NCBI GenBank assembly: GCA_005889075.1
Contig: VBDQ01000047.1
Coordinates: 1-38,237, forward strand
Source of the DNA: Chloroflexota bacterium
GTDB taxonomy: Bacteria > Chloroflexota > Limnocylindria > P2-11E
DNA: 38,237 nt
Reading direction: 5' to 3'
Shown: positions 22,590 to 29,686 of the stretch, piece by piece
How positions within the stretch are numbered: position 1 is the stretch's first letter
Layout: the number at the start of each line of letters is the position of its first letter
Notes under the pieces: generated by a model
Told to the model about the DNA's origin: nothing
What the model saw: only the letters and a program-made list of their open reading frames with translations
The model's database searches: none
Position numbers and translations under genes: made by a program

Positions 22590-23206
22590 GTCACGGAGCG
22601 GTCCCGAATCGTCTCGCCGACGGCGCGCGCGGCGGGCTCGCGCCCATCGCGCGCCGGCTTGCGGCCCTTGGCGTGACCGCGAACGCCGTCACGCTGGTCG
22701 GCGGAGGGCTCACGATCGTCGGCGCGCTCTTCCTCGCGCTCGCGATGCCACAGCTCGCGCTCATCGTCCTGATCCTCGGGACGCTCGCCGACACGCTCGA
22801 CGGGCAGATCGCGAAGGCGTCGGGTGGCGGCACGCCGTTTGGCGCGTTCCTCGACTCGACCGTCGATCGCATCGCCGACGCCTCGCTCTTTGTCGGGACA
22901 GCGCTGCTCGCGGTCGGCAGCGCACAGCCCGCGCTGCTCTGGTGGGCCCTCATCGCGCTCGTCGCGTCCTTCCTCGTGCCGTACGTGAGAGCAAAGGCGG
23001 AGTCGCTCGGCCTCGCCGCGGCGGTGGGGCCGGCGCCGCGCGAGGCCCGCATCGTCATCTTTCTGATCGGCCTCGCAGCCTGGGCGCTCCTCGGCCTCGA
23101 CGGACTCTTCATCGCGGCGGTGCTTGCCGTCGCGCTCCTTGCTTCGATCACCGCCGCGGTTCGGGTCGCCCACGTCGGGCGCCAACTTCAGGCCAAAGGA
23201 AGGTAA
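22586..23206 (+). CDS. pgsA: CDP-alcohol phosphatidyltransferase, probable phosphatidylinositol phosphate synthase
   Basis: The 206-residue membrane enzyme has the CDP-alcohol phosphotransferase signature D-G-x2-A-(R/K)-x8-G-x3-D-x3-[11 protein letters not shown] then [17 protein letters not shown] (~70-98), with Lys where Arg is usual. Several hydrophobic helices surround it ([37 protein letters not shown]). In actinobacteria this family (PgsA1) transfers the phosphatidyl group from CDP-diacylglycerol to inositol 1-phosphate. The next gene makes that inositol phosphate, so the same role is likely here; other head groups cannot be excluded from the motif alone. Start is fixed by overlap with the ArsR-type gene. 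Confidence 0.9.
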
Positions 23207-23217
23207 CAAGCCAGAAC

Positions 23218-24363
23218 ATGCCGGCAAAACCGACGACGAGAAAACGCACGGCGCGACCCCGTCGCACGAAGCGGATCCGCGTCGCCATCGTGGGCGTCGG
23301 CAACTGCGCGAGCTCGCTCGTACAGGGCGTCCACTACTACCGCGATGCCAAGCCCACCGATCGCATCCCGGGGATCATGCACGTCGACCTCGGGGGGTAT
23401 CACCTGGGGGACATCGACTTCGTTGCCGCGTTCGACGTCGACCGGAACAAGGTCGGCAAAGACCTCGCCGACGCCATCTACGCCGCGCCCAACAACACCT
23501 ATCGCTTCGCCGATGTCCCCCACACGGGCGTGCGGGTAAGCCGTGGCATGACCCACGACGGGATCGGCAAGTACCTCTCGGGGGTCGTGCAGAAGGCGCC
23601 GGGCCAGACCGACGACGTGGTCGGCATCCTTCGCGAGCGGCAGGTCGACGTCATCGTGAGCTACCTCCCGGTCGGCAGCGAAGAGGCCACCAAGTGGTAC
23701 GTCGAGCAGGCGCTCGAGGCCGGTTGCGCCTTCATCAACTGCATTCCGGTGTTCATCGCGCGGGAACCCTATTGGCAGCGGCGGTTCGCGCAGAAGGGCC
23801 TGCCCATCATCGGCGATGACATAAAGTCCCAAGTCGGCGCGACGATCACCCATCGGGTCCTCACGCGCCTCTTCATGGACCGCGGCGTGCGCCTCGATCG
23901 GACGTACCAGCTGAACTTCGGTGGGAACACCGACTTCCTCAACATGCTCGAGCGAGAGAGACTCGAATCGAAGAAGATCAGCAAGACGAACGCAGTGACG
24001 AGCATGCTCGACTACCCGCTCGCCGAGAAGGACGTGCACGTCGGTCCGTCCGACTACGTGCCGTGGCTCCTCGATCGGAAGTGGTGCTACATACGAATGG
24101 AAGGCACGACGTTCGGCGACGTCCCGCTGAACGCGGAGGTCAAGCTCGAGGTGTGGGACTCGCCCAACAGCGCGGGCGTGGTCATCGACGCGATCCGCTG
24201 TTGCAAGCTCGCGCTCGACCGCCGCCTCGCCGGCACGATCGTCGCGCCGTCGGCCTACTTCATGAAGTCGCCCCCACGGCAGATCCCTGACGACGCGGCG
24301 CGCGAGGGAGTGGAGGATTTCATCAAGGGCTCGAACACGCAGACGCTCAAAGGCAGCGCGTAG
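23218..24363 (+). CDS. ino1: inositol-3-phosphate (myo-inositol-1-phosphate) synthase
   Basis: This NAD-dependent enzyme isomerises glucose 6-phosphate to inositol 3-phosphate. The 381-residue product has an N-terminal basic stretch, then [17 protein letters not shown] (~22-38, the NAD-binding loop), the conserved [22 protein letters not shown] and [11 protein letters not shown] motifs, and [18 protein letters not shown]. It matches the short prokaryotic form found in actinobacteria. ATG 23218 is preceded by AAGGAAGGT, so it is leadered or coupled to pgsA 11 bases upstream. Together with PgsA it commits the cell to inositol phospholipid synthesis. Confidence 0.95.
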
Positions 24364-24365
24364 CG

Positions 24366-25280
24366 GTGCGCGAGCGCCTGTTCCACGGCGCCGCGCTCTG
24401 GGGATGGCGACTGGGATCGGCGCTCGCCCAGCATTTGCCATCGTGGATCTCGTACCCTGCCGCGGTCGCCGGCGGGGAGCTCGCCTACGTGGTGTGGGTG
24501 AGCCGTCGCCGCATCGCGAAGGACAACTTCGCCGTCGTTCTGGACCGGCCGCCTGGCCACCGCGAGGTCGCACAGGTGGCACGACGCTCCTTCCGGAACT
24601 TCGCCAAGTACCTCGTCGAGATCATGCGGTTCCCCCGGCTCGGCGCGAACGAGCTCGAGCGCCTGGTGACCGTCGATCCGCGCTCGTGGGCACACCTCCG
24701 GTCGGCGCGGGAACACGGGCGCGGCCTCATCTTCGTCTCGATGCATTTCGGAAACTTCGAGATGGGGGGTGCGCGCATCGCCGACGAGATGCCCCTCAAC
24801 GTGATCGCCGATGAGCTCGAGAACGAGCGGCTCATGGACATCCTCGTGACGAACCGCAAGCACAAGAACCTGCACCTGCTGCCTCCGAACGGCGCCGTCC
24901 GGCAGGTCCTGCAGGCGCTCAAGCGGAACGAGATGGTCGGCTTGATGATGGATCTCGGCCCGCGCGCGCAGGAGCTCGCGCACGTCGAGGCGACGTTCTT
25001 CGGCCTGCCGGCGAAGTTCCCAACGATCGCCGCGAACCTCGCCCGGGTCTCGGGTGCACCGATCGTGGTGGCGGCGGTGACGCGGGAGCGCGACAACACG
25101 TTCCGCGGCATCGCGCAGCCGCCGATCTTCGTCGAGCGGACCAAGCAGGCGGCGCACGACATCGAGCGGGCGACCCAGGCGATCGCGCGGGGTCTCGAGC
25201 AGCTCGTCCGGGGCGATCCCGATCAGTGGTACATCTTCCGGCCGATGTGGTCGCGCTCGGAAGGCGCCGCGAGCCGATGA
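24366..25280 (+). CDS. LpxL/PatA-family lysophospholipid acyltransferase 1
   Basis: The 304-residue protein is of the bacterial lipid A/phosphatidylinositol mannoside acyltransferase family. The catalytic H-x4-E is HFGNFE (His127, Glu132), with a hydrophobic N-terminal anchor (~15-45) and the C-terminal DPDQWYIFRPMW typical of the family. In mycobacteria PatA of this family acylates phosphatidylinositol mannosides. In a cluster with ino1, pgsA and a PimA-like gene, that role fits. Start is GTG 24366, three bases after ino1. The acyl donor and exact acceptor are inferred, not shown. Confidence 0.88.
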   Translation: MRERLFHGAALWGWRLGSALAQHLPSWISYPAAVAGGELAYVVWVSRRRIAKDNFAVVLDRPPGHREVAQVARRSFRNFAKYLVEIMRFPRLGANELERLVTVDPRSWAHLRSAREHGRGLIFVSMHFGNFEMGGARIADEMPLNVIADELENERLMDILVTNRKHKNLHLLPPNGAVRQVLQALKRNEMVGLMMDLGPRAQELAHVEATFFGLPAKFPTIAANLARVSGAPIVVAAVTRERDNTFRGIAQPPIFVERTKQAAHDIERATQAIARGLEQLVRGDPDQWYIFRPMWSRSEGAASR

Positions 25281-26113
25281 GCGCGGCGCGCGCGCTCGCC
25301 GACGCGGCGGAGCGGGTCCTCCCCCGAGTCGCGCCGTCGTGGCACACGCCGATCGCCGAGGCCGTGGGCACGATCGCCTACCTGGCAGCGCCGCGCGCGA
25401 GAGCCGCCGTCCGCGCGAACCTGGCCGTCGTCGCACCGGATCGTCCGCGTCTCGCGCGTCGCGTATTCATCAATCAGGTCCGCGGCTACCTCGAGGTCTT
25501 CCAGATCCCGGCGCTCGACGACAAGCGCCTCACCGCGATGGTCGTCGTCGACGGTTGGGACCGCTTCACGCGGGCGCACGCTCAGGGAAAGGGCGTGATC
25601 TTCGCGAGCGCGCACCTGGGTCCGGTGGCGCTCGTCGGGCAAATCCTCATGGCACGCGGATTCGAGCTGACACTGCCGGTCGAGTCGACCGAGTCCGAGC
25701 TCATGCGCGCGGTCAACCGCGCGCGCTCCGCACGGGGCCTGCACCTCGTGCCGCTGGACTCGCCTCTCGGTATCCACCGGGCGTTGCGGCATGGCGGCGT
25801 CCTCGGGTTCCTCGCCGATCGCGCCGTCAGCGGCGTCGGGATCCGCGTGCCGTTCTGCGGACGCGAGGCGCTCGTGCCGTCGGCCCACGTCGCGCTCGCG
25901 CTCCGCACCGGGGCCGCGCTGGTGCCCGCCTTCGCCTGGCGGGAAGGTGGCGCGCTCCATGCCTACATCGAGGATCCACTCGACCTCGTAGACACCGGCG
26001 CCCGGGAAAGCGACATCCGCGAAGGCGTGCGACGCTTCGCCGCGGTGCTCGAGCGCTACGTCCGTCGTTACCCCGATCAGTGGACCGTGTTCGACCGCAT
26101 GTGGAGAGACTGA
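25277..26113 (+). CDS. LpxL/PatA-family acyltransferase 2, acidic catalytic residue missing
   Basis: ATG 25277 overlaps the stop of the first acyltransferase (ATGA). The 278-residue product shares the family layout: hydrophobic start, FASAHLGPVALVG at the catalytic site, FLADRAVSGVGIRVPFCG, GTGAALVPAF-like strand and C-terminal YPDQWTVFDRMW. At the catalytic site His113 is followed by LGPVA, so the Asp/Glu expected five residues after the His is Ala118. The catalytic base partner is therefore absent or supplied otherwise. It may act on a different acceptor, as a partner of acyltransferase 1, or as a non-catalytic protein. Confidence 0.82.
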   Translation: MSAARALADAAERVLPRVAPSWHTPIAEAVGTIAYLAAPRARAAVRANLAVVAPDRPRLARRVFINQVRGYLEVFQIPALDDKRLTAMVVVDGWDRFTRAHAQGKGVIFASAHLGPVALVGQILMARGFELTLPVESTESELMRAVNRARSARGLHLVPLDSPLGIHRALRHGGVLGFLADRAVSGVGIRVPFCGREALVPSAHVALALRTGAALVPAFAWREGGALHAYIEDPLDLVDTGARESDIREGVRRFAAVLERYVRRYPDQWTVFDRMWRD

Positions 26114-26838
26114 TGGGTCGCGCCGACCTCCAGCTGCATAGCGATCTGGGCGACGGACTGTCCTCGATCGAGCAGATCCTCGACAGCGCCGAGCGCATGA
26201 GCCTCGATGTCATCGCGCTCACGGATCACGACGACATCCGCGGGGCGTTCGCGCTCCGCGATCTCGCGGCGCGTCGCGGGAGTCCTGTCGAGATCGTGAC
26301 CGGCATCGAGATCACGACGCGATCGGGTCATCTCCTTGGACTCTGGATCGAGGACGAGATCCCGATCTTCTGCCCGCTCCCCGAAGCCTTGCGGCGGATC
26401 CATGCCGCAGGCGGTCTCGCGATCGTGCCTCACCCGCTCTCGTTCTTGACCTTCTCGGTCGGCGAGCGCGCGTTGCGTGCGCTCCTCGCGCACGCCGATC
26501 CAAAGCGGATGGTGGACGGGATCGAGACCCGGAATCCCTCGTGGGCCGGTCGTGTCCGCGCGTCGCGAACGCTGTGGCTCAACACGAACGTGCTGAAGGC
26601 AGCCGAAACGGGCTCCAGCGACGCACACCACGCCTCGCTCGTCGGCACATGCTGGACCGAGTTCCCGGGCCGAACGGGCGCGGACCTCCGCCAGGCGATC
26701 GCAGATCGATCGACGACCGCGAAAGGCCGTGAGTGGTCAGTGCGGGAGCACCTGGATCGCGCAGCACTCCAGCAGTGGCGCTCGATGGTGCGCGATCCGA
26801 TAAAGCAGGCCCGGCGGCGAATGTCGAGACGATCTTGA
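26113..26838 (+). CDS. PHP-domain metal-dependent phosphoesterase
   Basis: The 241-residue protein has the PHP motifs in order: DLQLHSDLGDG (~5-15, metal ligands His9 and Asp11), ALTDHDD (~35-41), VTGIEITT, the IVPHPLSF segment and the C-terminal GSSDAH. This is a trinuclear-metal phosphoesterase fold of the YciV/RNase AM type (oligonucleotide or 3',5'-bisphosphate hydrolysis), though the substrate here is unknown. The ATG overlaps the acyltransferase 2 stop by one base, so it is coupled in the lipid operon. Confidence 0.88.
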   Translation: MGRADLQLHSDLGDGLSSIEQILDSAERMSLDVIALTDHDDIRGAFALRDLAARRGSPVEIVTGIEITTRSGHLLGLWIEDEIPIFCPLPEALRRIHAAGGLAIVPHPLSFLTFSVGERALRALLAHADPKRMVDGIETRNPSWAGRVRASRTLWLNTNVLKAAETGSSDAHHASLVGTCWTEFPGRTGADLRQAIADRSTTAKGREWSVREHLDRAALQQWRSMVRDPIKQARRRMSRRS

Positions 26839-27013
26839 CGACCCGGACTCGTGTGCCGGCGAGCGCCGGGCACTCCTTCTCCTCGCTGCTGGCTACGCCG
26901 GCCCCTTCATGCTCGGCACGCGAGTCGTTCGGGCCGGCTGGGCGCAGACGCTCGTCGAAGGAGCGCCCAACGCTCGCCGCCACAGGCTTCGGCTTCGTCT
27001 CGCGTCTGCCCGT

Positions 27014-28008
27014 ATGAAGATCGGGATCGTCTCGCCCTACGCGTATCCGCGGCCGGGCGGCGCGAACTCGTACATCCGCGAGAGCTACCAGGAGCTGCGG
27101 CGCATCGGCCACGACGTTCGCATCATCACCGCGCCGTGGGGCGACGACCCGCCGGCGCAGGACGTGATCCAGATCGGACAGGCGATCGCGGTCCCCTACA
27201 ACGGAGCGGTCGGCAGGATCACGCTCTCGCTGCGCCTCGAGTGGCTCGTGTCACGGATGCTCGAGCGTGAGCGGTTCGACATCATCCATCACCACGAGCC
27301 GCTCGTTCCCTTCCTCTCCATGCAGATCCTCGACTCCGCGAGATGCCCGAACGTCGCGACGTTCCACGCGTTCGGCGGCTTCTCGTTCTCGTACTGGGCA
27401 GGACGCGTGATCGGCGAGCGCTACATGAAACGGCTCGACGCCCGCATCGCGGTCTCGAGCGCGGCGCGGCATTTCATCTCGACCTATTTTCCGGGCGACT
27501 ACCGGATCATTCCGAACGGGGTGGACGTCCGGTTCTACGCGAACGCGAAGCCGTTCCCCGAGTACGAGGACGGGAAGACGAACATCCTCTTCGTCGGCCG
27601 CGTCGAGCCGCGGAAGGGCGCGATGTACCTCCTGCGTGCCTACGCGAAGCTGAAGCCCAGGTTTCCCCAGCTGCGTCTCATCTTCTGTAGCGCCGGCCCG
27701 CAGATCGGTCAGATGCGGCGCTTCGTGCGACAGAACGGGCTCGGCGACGTGCTGTTCGCCGGCCGCGTCGACGACGTGGACAAGGCGCGCTTCTACAAGA
27801 CCGCGGACATCTTCTGCGCGCCGTCGACCGGCCAGGAGTCCTTCGGGATCGTGCTGCTCGAGGCCATGGCCGCGGGCCTCCCGGTGGTCGCGAGCGACAT
27901 CCACGGGTACAAGCGTGGCGGCGGGCTCCCGAGTACGACTGGTCCCACGTCGCAGCGCAGCTCGTTGAACTCTACGAAGAGGTCATCCGTAGGAAGGGCG
28001 TGCGCTAG
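27014..28008 (+). pseudogene. pimA: PimA-like GT4 mannosyltransferase, interrupted by an internal deletion and frame change
   Basis: From ATG 27014 the protein resembles PimA, which transfers mannose from GDP-mannose to phosphatidylinositol: MKIGIVSPYAYPRPGGANSY, TFHAFGG, RIIPNGVDVRFY, LFVGRVEPRKGAMYLL, the EX7E motif QESFGIVLLE and VVASDIHGYKR. The frame then departs from homology at ~27917. The C-terminal signature EYDWSHVAAQLVELYEE and the stop at 28006-28008 are found in another frame from 27931. Relative to PimA about 45 residues (roughly 120 bases after the 14 bases present) are missing between these parts. Without a frameshift the open frame runs on into the ABC binding-protein gene as an artefactual 925-codon fusion. 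The lesion may be real or an assembly error. Confidence 0.8.
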
Positions 28009-28033
28009 AGTCCGCGCCGAGGGGGTGGTCCTC

Positions 28034-29686
28034 GTGGTCACATACCGTCGCGTCGCCGCACTCTCGCTGACCTTCGCGCTCGCGCTCGCCGCATGCTCGC
28101 CGAAGGCCACCGGGGGCGGCTCGCAGACACCGGCGCCCGCCGGCGAGCAGCCCAGACCGGGTGGCACGCTCACCTTCATCGTCAACGCCGAGCCGCCGTC
28201 GTACGACGGCCACCGTGAGACGACCTTCGCGCTCCTCCACCCGATCGCGCCGCACTACAGCACGCTCTACAAGTTCGACCCGAGCGACCTCACCAAAGTC
28301 ATCCCGGACGTCGCGGCGGCGATGCCTGACGTCTCGTCCGACAAGCTCACCTACACCATCAAGCTCCGCACCGACGTCAAGTTCCACGATGGCCAGAAGA
28401 TGACGAGCGACGACGTCGTCGCCACCTATCAAAAGATCATCTTCCCGCCGACCGGCGTCCTCTCGCCGCGCGCCGGCGCGTACGCCGCGGTGGACACGAT
28501 CACCAATCCCGCGCCGGACCAGCTCGTGTTCAAGCTCAAGTACCCATCGGCCTCGTTCGCGACGAACCTTGCCTCGCCATGGAACTTCATCTACAGCGCC
28601 GCGAAGCTCAAGACGGACATCCACTGGTACGAGAAGAACATCGACGGCACCGGCCCGTTCATCTACGTCTCGAACACCAAAGGGGCGGACTGGGTCGGCA
28701 AGAAGAACCCCGACTACTTCGGCAAGGACAAGAGCGGGACTCAGCTTCCGTACCTCGACGGCTACAAGGCGCTCGTCATCACCGACGCGAACGCCGAGGT
28801 GAACGCGATCCGCAGCAAGCAGGCCATGATCGAGTTCCGCGGCTTCACCCCGCAGCAGCGCGACGATCTCTCGCGAGCGCTGCCGAACGACCTCGCGATC
28901 CAGGAAGCGCCGTGGATCTGCGTCAACTACATCGTTCCGAACACGAAGGTCAAGCCGTTCGACGACGTGCGCGTCCGCCAGGCCCTCACGCTCGCGATCG
29001 ACCGCTACGCGGGGAGCGCCTCGCTCCAGAAGATCACGATCGTGAAGGACGTCGGCGGGCTCATGCGGCCGGGCGGACCCTTCGCGCAGGCTGACGCGGA
29101 CCTTCAGAAGATCGCGGGCTACAGCACCGACGCCGCGGCCGCGAAAACGAAGGCCAAGCAGCTCCTCGCCGACGCGGGCGTGCCAAACCTCAGCTTCAAG
29201 TTCCTGAACCGCAACATCACCACGCCGTACGAGCCGGTGGCGCTGTTCGTCATCGATCAGTGGAAGCAGGTCGGCATCACCGCGACGCACGACGTGAAGG
29301 AGACGTCCGCCTACCAGGCAGACCTGCGCGCCGGCAATTTCCAGGTGGCGCTCGACTTCAACTGCGACTTCCTCGACGAGCCCGACCTCCAGCTCGCCAA
29401 GTTCTGGTCGGCGTCGGGGCTCGGCAAGGGCCTCAACTTCGCGTATTACGACGACGCCGATCTCGACAAGATGATCGACGCGCAGAGCCGCGAGACCGAC
29501 CCGGCGAAGCGCAAGACGCTCGTCGCGGGCATCGAGAAATACGCGATGGACACGAAGGCCTACCAGTACCCAGTCCTGTGGTGGTACCGGATCATTCCGT
29601 ACCTCAACGTCGTGCGCGGCTGGCGCATCGGCTCGAACCACTACACGAATCAGGACCTCGAAACGGTCTGGCTCGCGCAGAAGTGA
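28034..29686 (+). CDS. ABC transporter substrate-binding lipoprotein, family 5 (peptide/nickel type)
   Basis: GTG 28034 is chosen because GAGGGGG lies eight bases upstream and the next residues form a lipoprotein signal: RRVAALSLTFALALAAC with lipobox LAAC. The mature ~530-residue domain has the family 5 marks FHDGQKMTSDDVVATYQK (~115-132), DGTGPFIYVSNTKG and the C-terminal LNVVRGWRIGS. It would be tethered outside the membrane and deliver oligopeptides, or a related ligand, to the two permeases encoded next. Ligand identity is unknown. The open reading frame continues upstream only because of the pimA lesion. Confidence 0.92.
   Translation: MVTYRRVAALSLTFALALAACSPKATGGGSQTPAPAGEQPRPGGTLTFIVNAEPPSYDGHRETTFALLHPIAPHYSTLYKFDPSDLTKVIPDVAAAMPDVSSDKLTYTIKLRTDVKFHDGQKMTSDDVVATYQKIIFPPTGVLSPRAGAYAAVDTITNPAPDQLVFKLKYPSASFATNLASPWNFIYSAAKLKTDIHWYEKNIDGTGPFIYVSNTKGADWVGKKNPDYFGKDKSGTQLPYLDGYKALVITDANAEVNAIRSKQAMIEFRGFTPQQRDDLSRALPNDLAIQEAPWICVNYIVPNTKVKPFDDVRVRQALTLAIDRYAGSASLQKITIVKDVGGLMRPGGPFAQADADLQKIAGYSTDAAAAKTKAKQLLADAGVPNLSFKFLNRNITTPYEPVALFVIDQWKQVGITATHDVKETSAYQADLRAGNFQVALDFNCDFLDEPDLQLAKFWSASGLGKGLNFAYYDDADLDKMIDAQSRETDPAKRKTLVAGIEKYAMDTKAYQYPVLWWYRIIPYLNVVRGWRIGSNHYTNQDLETVWLAQK

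Follow-up and report, generated by a model that had tools for sequence, protein, structure and literature searches.

An apparent break in a PimA-like gene of a Chloroflexota metagenome-assembled genome is most likely an artefact of assembly

In the assembled genome of an uncultured Chloroflexota bacterium a PimA-like glycosyltransferase gene appears to be broken, and its reading frame continues into the lipoprotein gene that follows. Has the organism lost a functional copy of this gene, or has the assembly lost part of its sequence? We examined the locus in the window (the whole stretch of DNA that was analysed, 38,237 nt), which comes from a metagenome-assembled genome (MAG) that is 87% complete, here called G000, and we conclude that the break is very probably an artefact of metagenome assembly and not a lesion of the organism. 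The features discussed are collected in Table 1.

Table 1. Features of the PimA-like locus (positions are those of the window)
Feature	Position	Strand	Basis
Interspersed imperfect-palindromic repeat copy, between the PHP gene and the PimA-like gene	26839..27013	.	Repeat matches
925-codon open reading frame, an artefact of the seam	26909..29686	+	Open reading frame
PimA-like GT4 gene, 5′ part, codons 1-111, native to G000	27014..27346	+	Identity to genus members, pN/pS
Foreign patch, 571 nt, 100% identical to G001:C201 (other species, same genus)	27347..27917	+	Mismatches at 27346 and 27918, zero between
Seam, 121 nt missing and frame change	27917..27918	+	Aligned to G005 and G001; nine relatives each give a net 121
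C-terminal remnant EYDWSHVAAQLVELYEEVIRRKGVR and stop, other frame	27931..28008	+	Conserved against eight relatives
SBP_bac_5 lipoprotein gene, intact, GTG start	28034..29686	+	Start placed by analogy with relatives

The gene that begins at 27014 is PimA-like and is predicted from its sequence to encode a GDP-mannose-dependent phosphatidylinositol alpha-mannosyltransferase. It carries the Pfam domains Glyco_transf_4 and Glycos_transf_1, and the top solved-structure matches to residues 1-301 are mycobacterial PimA (PDB 4n9w, 2gej; E ~6e-57), in agreement with the original prediction. Upstream lie a CDP-alcohol phosphatidyltransferase (22676-23131), inositol-3-phosphate synthase (INO1), two acyltransferases and a PHP protein. 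The acyltransferases are LpxL/PatA-like, with PIM acyltransferase as their best or second-best NCBIfam match, and together these genes are what one would expect to find beside a gene of a phosphatidylinositol mannoside pathway. The gene resembles PimA in sequence and has upstream neighbours of the phosphatidylinositol-mannoside type. In the assembly, some 40 residues of its C-terminal domain are absent and its last codons stand in another frame; in relatives the gene is complete. The cluster as a whole (22676-28008) is of the phosphatidylinositol-mannoside type in an uncultured Chloroflexota; a search of a limited literature collection turned up nothing on phosphatidylinositol mannosides in Chloroflexi. 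Of 61 genomes searched, nearly all contain a good match to the PimA-like gene. A second close copy was not found in G000 (87% complete), where the next-best match is 36% identical and represents a paralogue that occurs in most genomes of the family.

The anatomy of the break is easily described. The GT4 frame can be followed from 27014 until recognisable homology stops at 27916 with the motif VVASDIHGYKR, and the C-terminal signature and its stop begin 14 nt past YKR in a different frame. As intact relatives have 45 residues, or 135 nt, between YKR and EYDW, 121 nt are missing here; the same net loss is obtained against each of nine relatives, and it is not divisible by three. In these respects the original prediction, which had described a loss of ~40 codons with a change of frame in a place where intact PimA has ~45 residues, was accurate to the base, including its coordinates, the 14-base spacing and the C-terminal signature in another frame. 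A complete C-terminal domain in a single frame, present in most relatives, is absent from the PimA-like gene as assembled. The 925-codon open frame that passes through the SBP_bac_5 lipoprotein gene, covering its 5′ end, is the product of this frame change plus the upstream interspersed repeat: the extra codons before M27014 come from the repeat, and the fused stretch at 27917-28034 is out-of-frame pimA plus intergenic spacer. The repeat itself is present in at least five copies in the genome, with matches of up to ~130 nt, and is frequent also in G020 (11 matches), G022 (14), G024 (8) and G026 (12); the interval between the PHP gene and pimA, where it sits here, is only ~36-40 nt in relatives. 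It was considered as a cause of the gap and rejected, as the missing segment is single-copy coding sequence.

Comparison with G001, another species of the genus, provides the main insight into the origin of the break. The comparison covered 848 kb of G000 and 650 kb of G001, of which 176 kb aligned at a mean identity of ~78%, and along the contig the identity is ~72-89%, as with other genus members. The first part of the gene, 27014-27346, is 86-89% identical at the nucleotide level to nearly all genus members, about evenly, and is followed by the 571 nt that are identical to G001. The longest exact match between the two genomes besides this block is 76 nt over the 176 kb aligned, and among 378 genome pairs at the pimA locus only one other exact run reaches 200 nt. 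Trees of the two segments and the identity table agree that only the patch at 27347-27917 groups with G001. Such a block, identical to another species in the midst of divergent sequence (571 nt at 100% against ~78%), is the pattern looked for in an assembly chimera. We also considered whether G001 had itself received the block from some third donor, and set this aside, as the identity of G001 to the genus does not change abruptly at the block edges. The final base of the block, 27917, is also the final base ahead of the 121-nt gap, so that gap and block are most simply the result of one event.

The gene does not look like one that has been abandoned. The pN/pS of its 5′ part is 0.04-0.10 against close genus members and the C-terminal remnant is conserved against eight relatives, so that the remaining pimA sequence on both sides of the seam is under strong purifying selection, with no sign of decay.

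Losses of a similar kind recur elsewhere in these assemblies. They were found by chaining the G000-G001 alignments such that both flanks still match the protein of the other genome; these chained matches replaced an initial scan for out-of-frame indels, in which paired alignment gaps predominated. A loss was counted as well supported if there was a strong protein match in both flanks and the missing part was single-copy, and weaker cases were excluded. Within the 176 kb there are nine such internal losses in G000, pimA included (70-131 nt), and seven in G001 (71-183 nt), spaced about every 20-25 kb in the one as in the other and carrying little or no replacement sequence. Five of the 16 are multiples of three, which is about the chance expectation without selection on frame. 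Among the genes affected are mltG of G000 (L164:1347, G000:C140), with 87 nt lost internally, the purine nucleoside phosphorylase of G000 (L164:11039, G000:C140), with 131 nt lost internally, and the only uppS of G001 (L201:490-510, G001:C60), in which 131 nt are missing out of frame. As an out-of-frame cut of an essential gene in a living population is not credible, it is the assemblies that are at fault, and faults of this kind elsewhere, essential genes included, are again what an assembly chimera leads one to look for. The pimA locus of other genomes likewise has private gaps, of 97 and 67 nt in G005, 72 and 109 nt in G002, 98 nt in G010 and 235 nt in G013, and in G026 (L018, G026:C54) the orthologous gene has an 86-nt out-of-frame gap close to its 3′ end; the contigs of G010 and G015 and one of G017 terminate within the PimA-like gene. 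The gap in G026 likewise fuses the frame falsely to that of the lipoprotein gene, and the ortholog in G006 (L016, G006:C122) has a TGA stop early in the frame, directly before GDDPP. None of the other gaps found has a foreign block like the one of 571 nt here, and those losses may have arisen by a route that is not exactly the same.

Of the readings in which the break is real, the one that accounts for block and gap together is a very recent recombination scar, in which G001-like DNA entered by homology-facilitated illegitimate recombination (HFIR), with homologous recombination in the 5′ half of the gene and an illegitimate join at the other end that deleted 121 nt and inactivated the gene. 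The anatomy fits, with one in-register edge and one edge of little or no homology at which recipient DNA was lost, and such joins may form without microhomology, as in three of four E. coli clones (PMC3240628). However, HFIR occurs 100 to a million times less often than homologous recombination (PMC3240628), no further recent exchange between G000 and G001 is seen in the 176 kb aligned, and a dominant null strain is unlikely because nearly all relatives searched have the gene. It also leaves unexplained the comparable frame-blind gaps without foreign blocks in essential and other core genes of the same assemblies. We consider this reading unlikely; if true, it would be a case of interspecies recombination in soil, caught just afterwards, and an uncultured Chloroflexota would have lost its phosphatidylinositol mannosyltransferase to a 571-nt import with an illegitimate edge.

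A simple deletion carried by the organism, giving a pseudogene unrelated to the G001-identical block, is more improbable still. It would account for the missing 121 nt, and the independent 86-nt gap in G026, the TGA codon in G006 and the 235-nt gap in G013 could be taken as further losses of the same gene, but these broken copies are likewise in draft MAGs, the relaxed selection to be expected is seen on neither side of the seam, and only chance could have placed the start of the deletion exactly where a unique foreign block ends. A true GT4-lipoprotein fusion, or a programmed frameshift, can claim the existence of the 925-codon open frame and is almost certainly wrong: the 40 missing residues are absent in every frame, and almost all relatives inspected have a separate glycosyltransferase stop codon at the corresponding place. 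This comparison refutes the fusion, as the original prediction had anticipated in calling the join with the ABC binding protein false.

We therefore return to an error of assembly, and propose that the contig follows native sequence to about 27346, then 571 nt of the ortholog of a co-occurring G001-like species, in register, and that this foreign piece was joined to native sequence at 27917/27918 without its 121-nt continuation. The likely origin would be a gap left when short reads were scaffolded across a gene that is conserved in co-occurring relatives, and then closed either by joining contig ends or by a local reassembly that recruited reads of the relative. The blunt seam is unlike a plain de Bruijn walk and needs a scaffolding, local-assembly or chimeric-read step. 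One Californian meadow yielded most of the assemblies of close relatives, which were made from 250-nt paired reads by IDBA-UD with subsequent error correction (PMC6784897), and the correction method deals with erroneous joins and scaffolding in short regions by Velvet reassembly of reads within 1 kb (PMC5079060). Tiny contigs of 221-266 nt are present in the assembly, and these together with the shared 571-nt block suggest that G000 is part of the same curated soil data set as its relatives. Where a gene is conserved, a reassembly or correction step of this type could pull in reads from a related species. The locus resembles chimeric or gapped short-read metagenome contigs in its species-switching block, in the frame-blind short losses and in its position in a gene that co-occurring relatives have conserved; for a pipeline of this type, erroneous scaffolding of short regions is on record (PMC5079060), and the present case is judged from the assembled sequence. 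We infer the particular pipeline step responsible, and the organism itself presumably carries an intact gene.

The original prediction had favoured a lesion of the organism and had named an assembly error as its own alternative. The foreign block at the gap and the recurrent frame-blind losses, essential genes included, in the two MAGs G000 and G001 argue against the lesion and make the alternative much the likelier. As the break is then an error of assembly, nothing can be inferred from it on the lipids of the organism and there is no lipid phenotype to predict. This disposes of a spurious pseudogene and of a spurious fusion of 925 residues, and as the MAGs of this group carry frame-blind losses of 70-183 nt in core genes, the absence or breakage of a single gene in them should not be taken as biology without reads.
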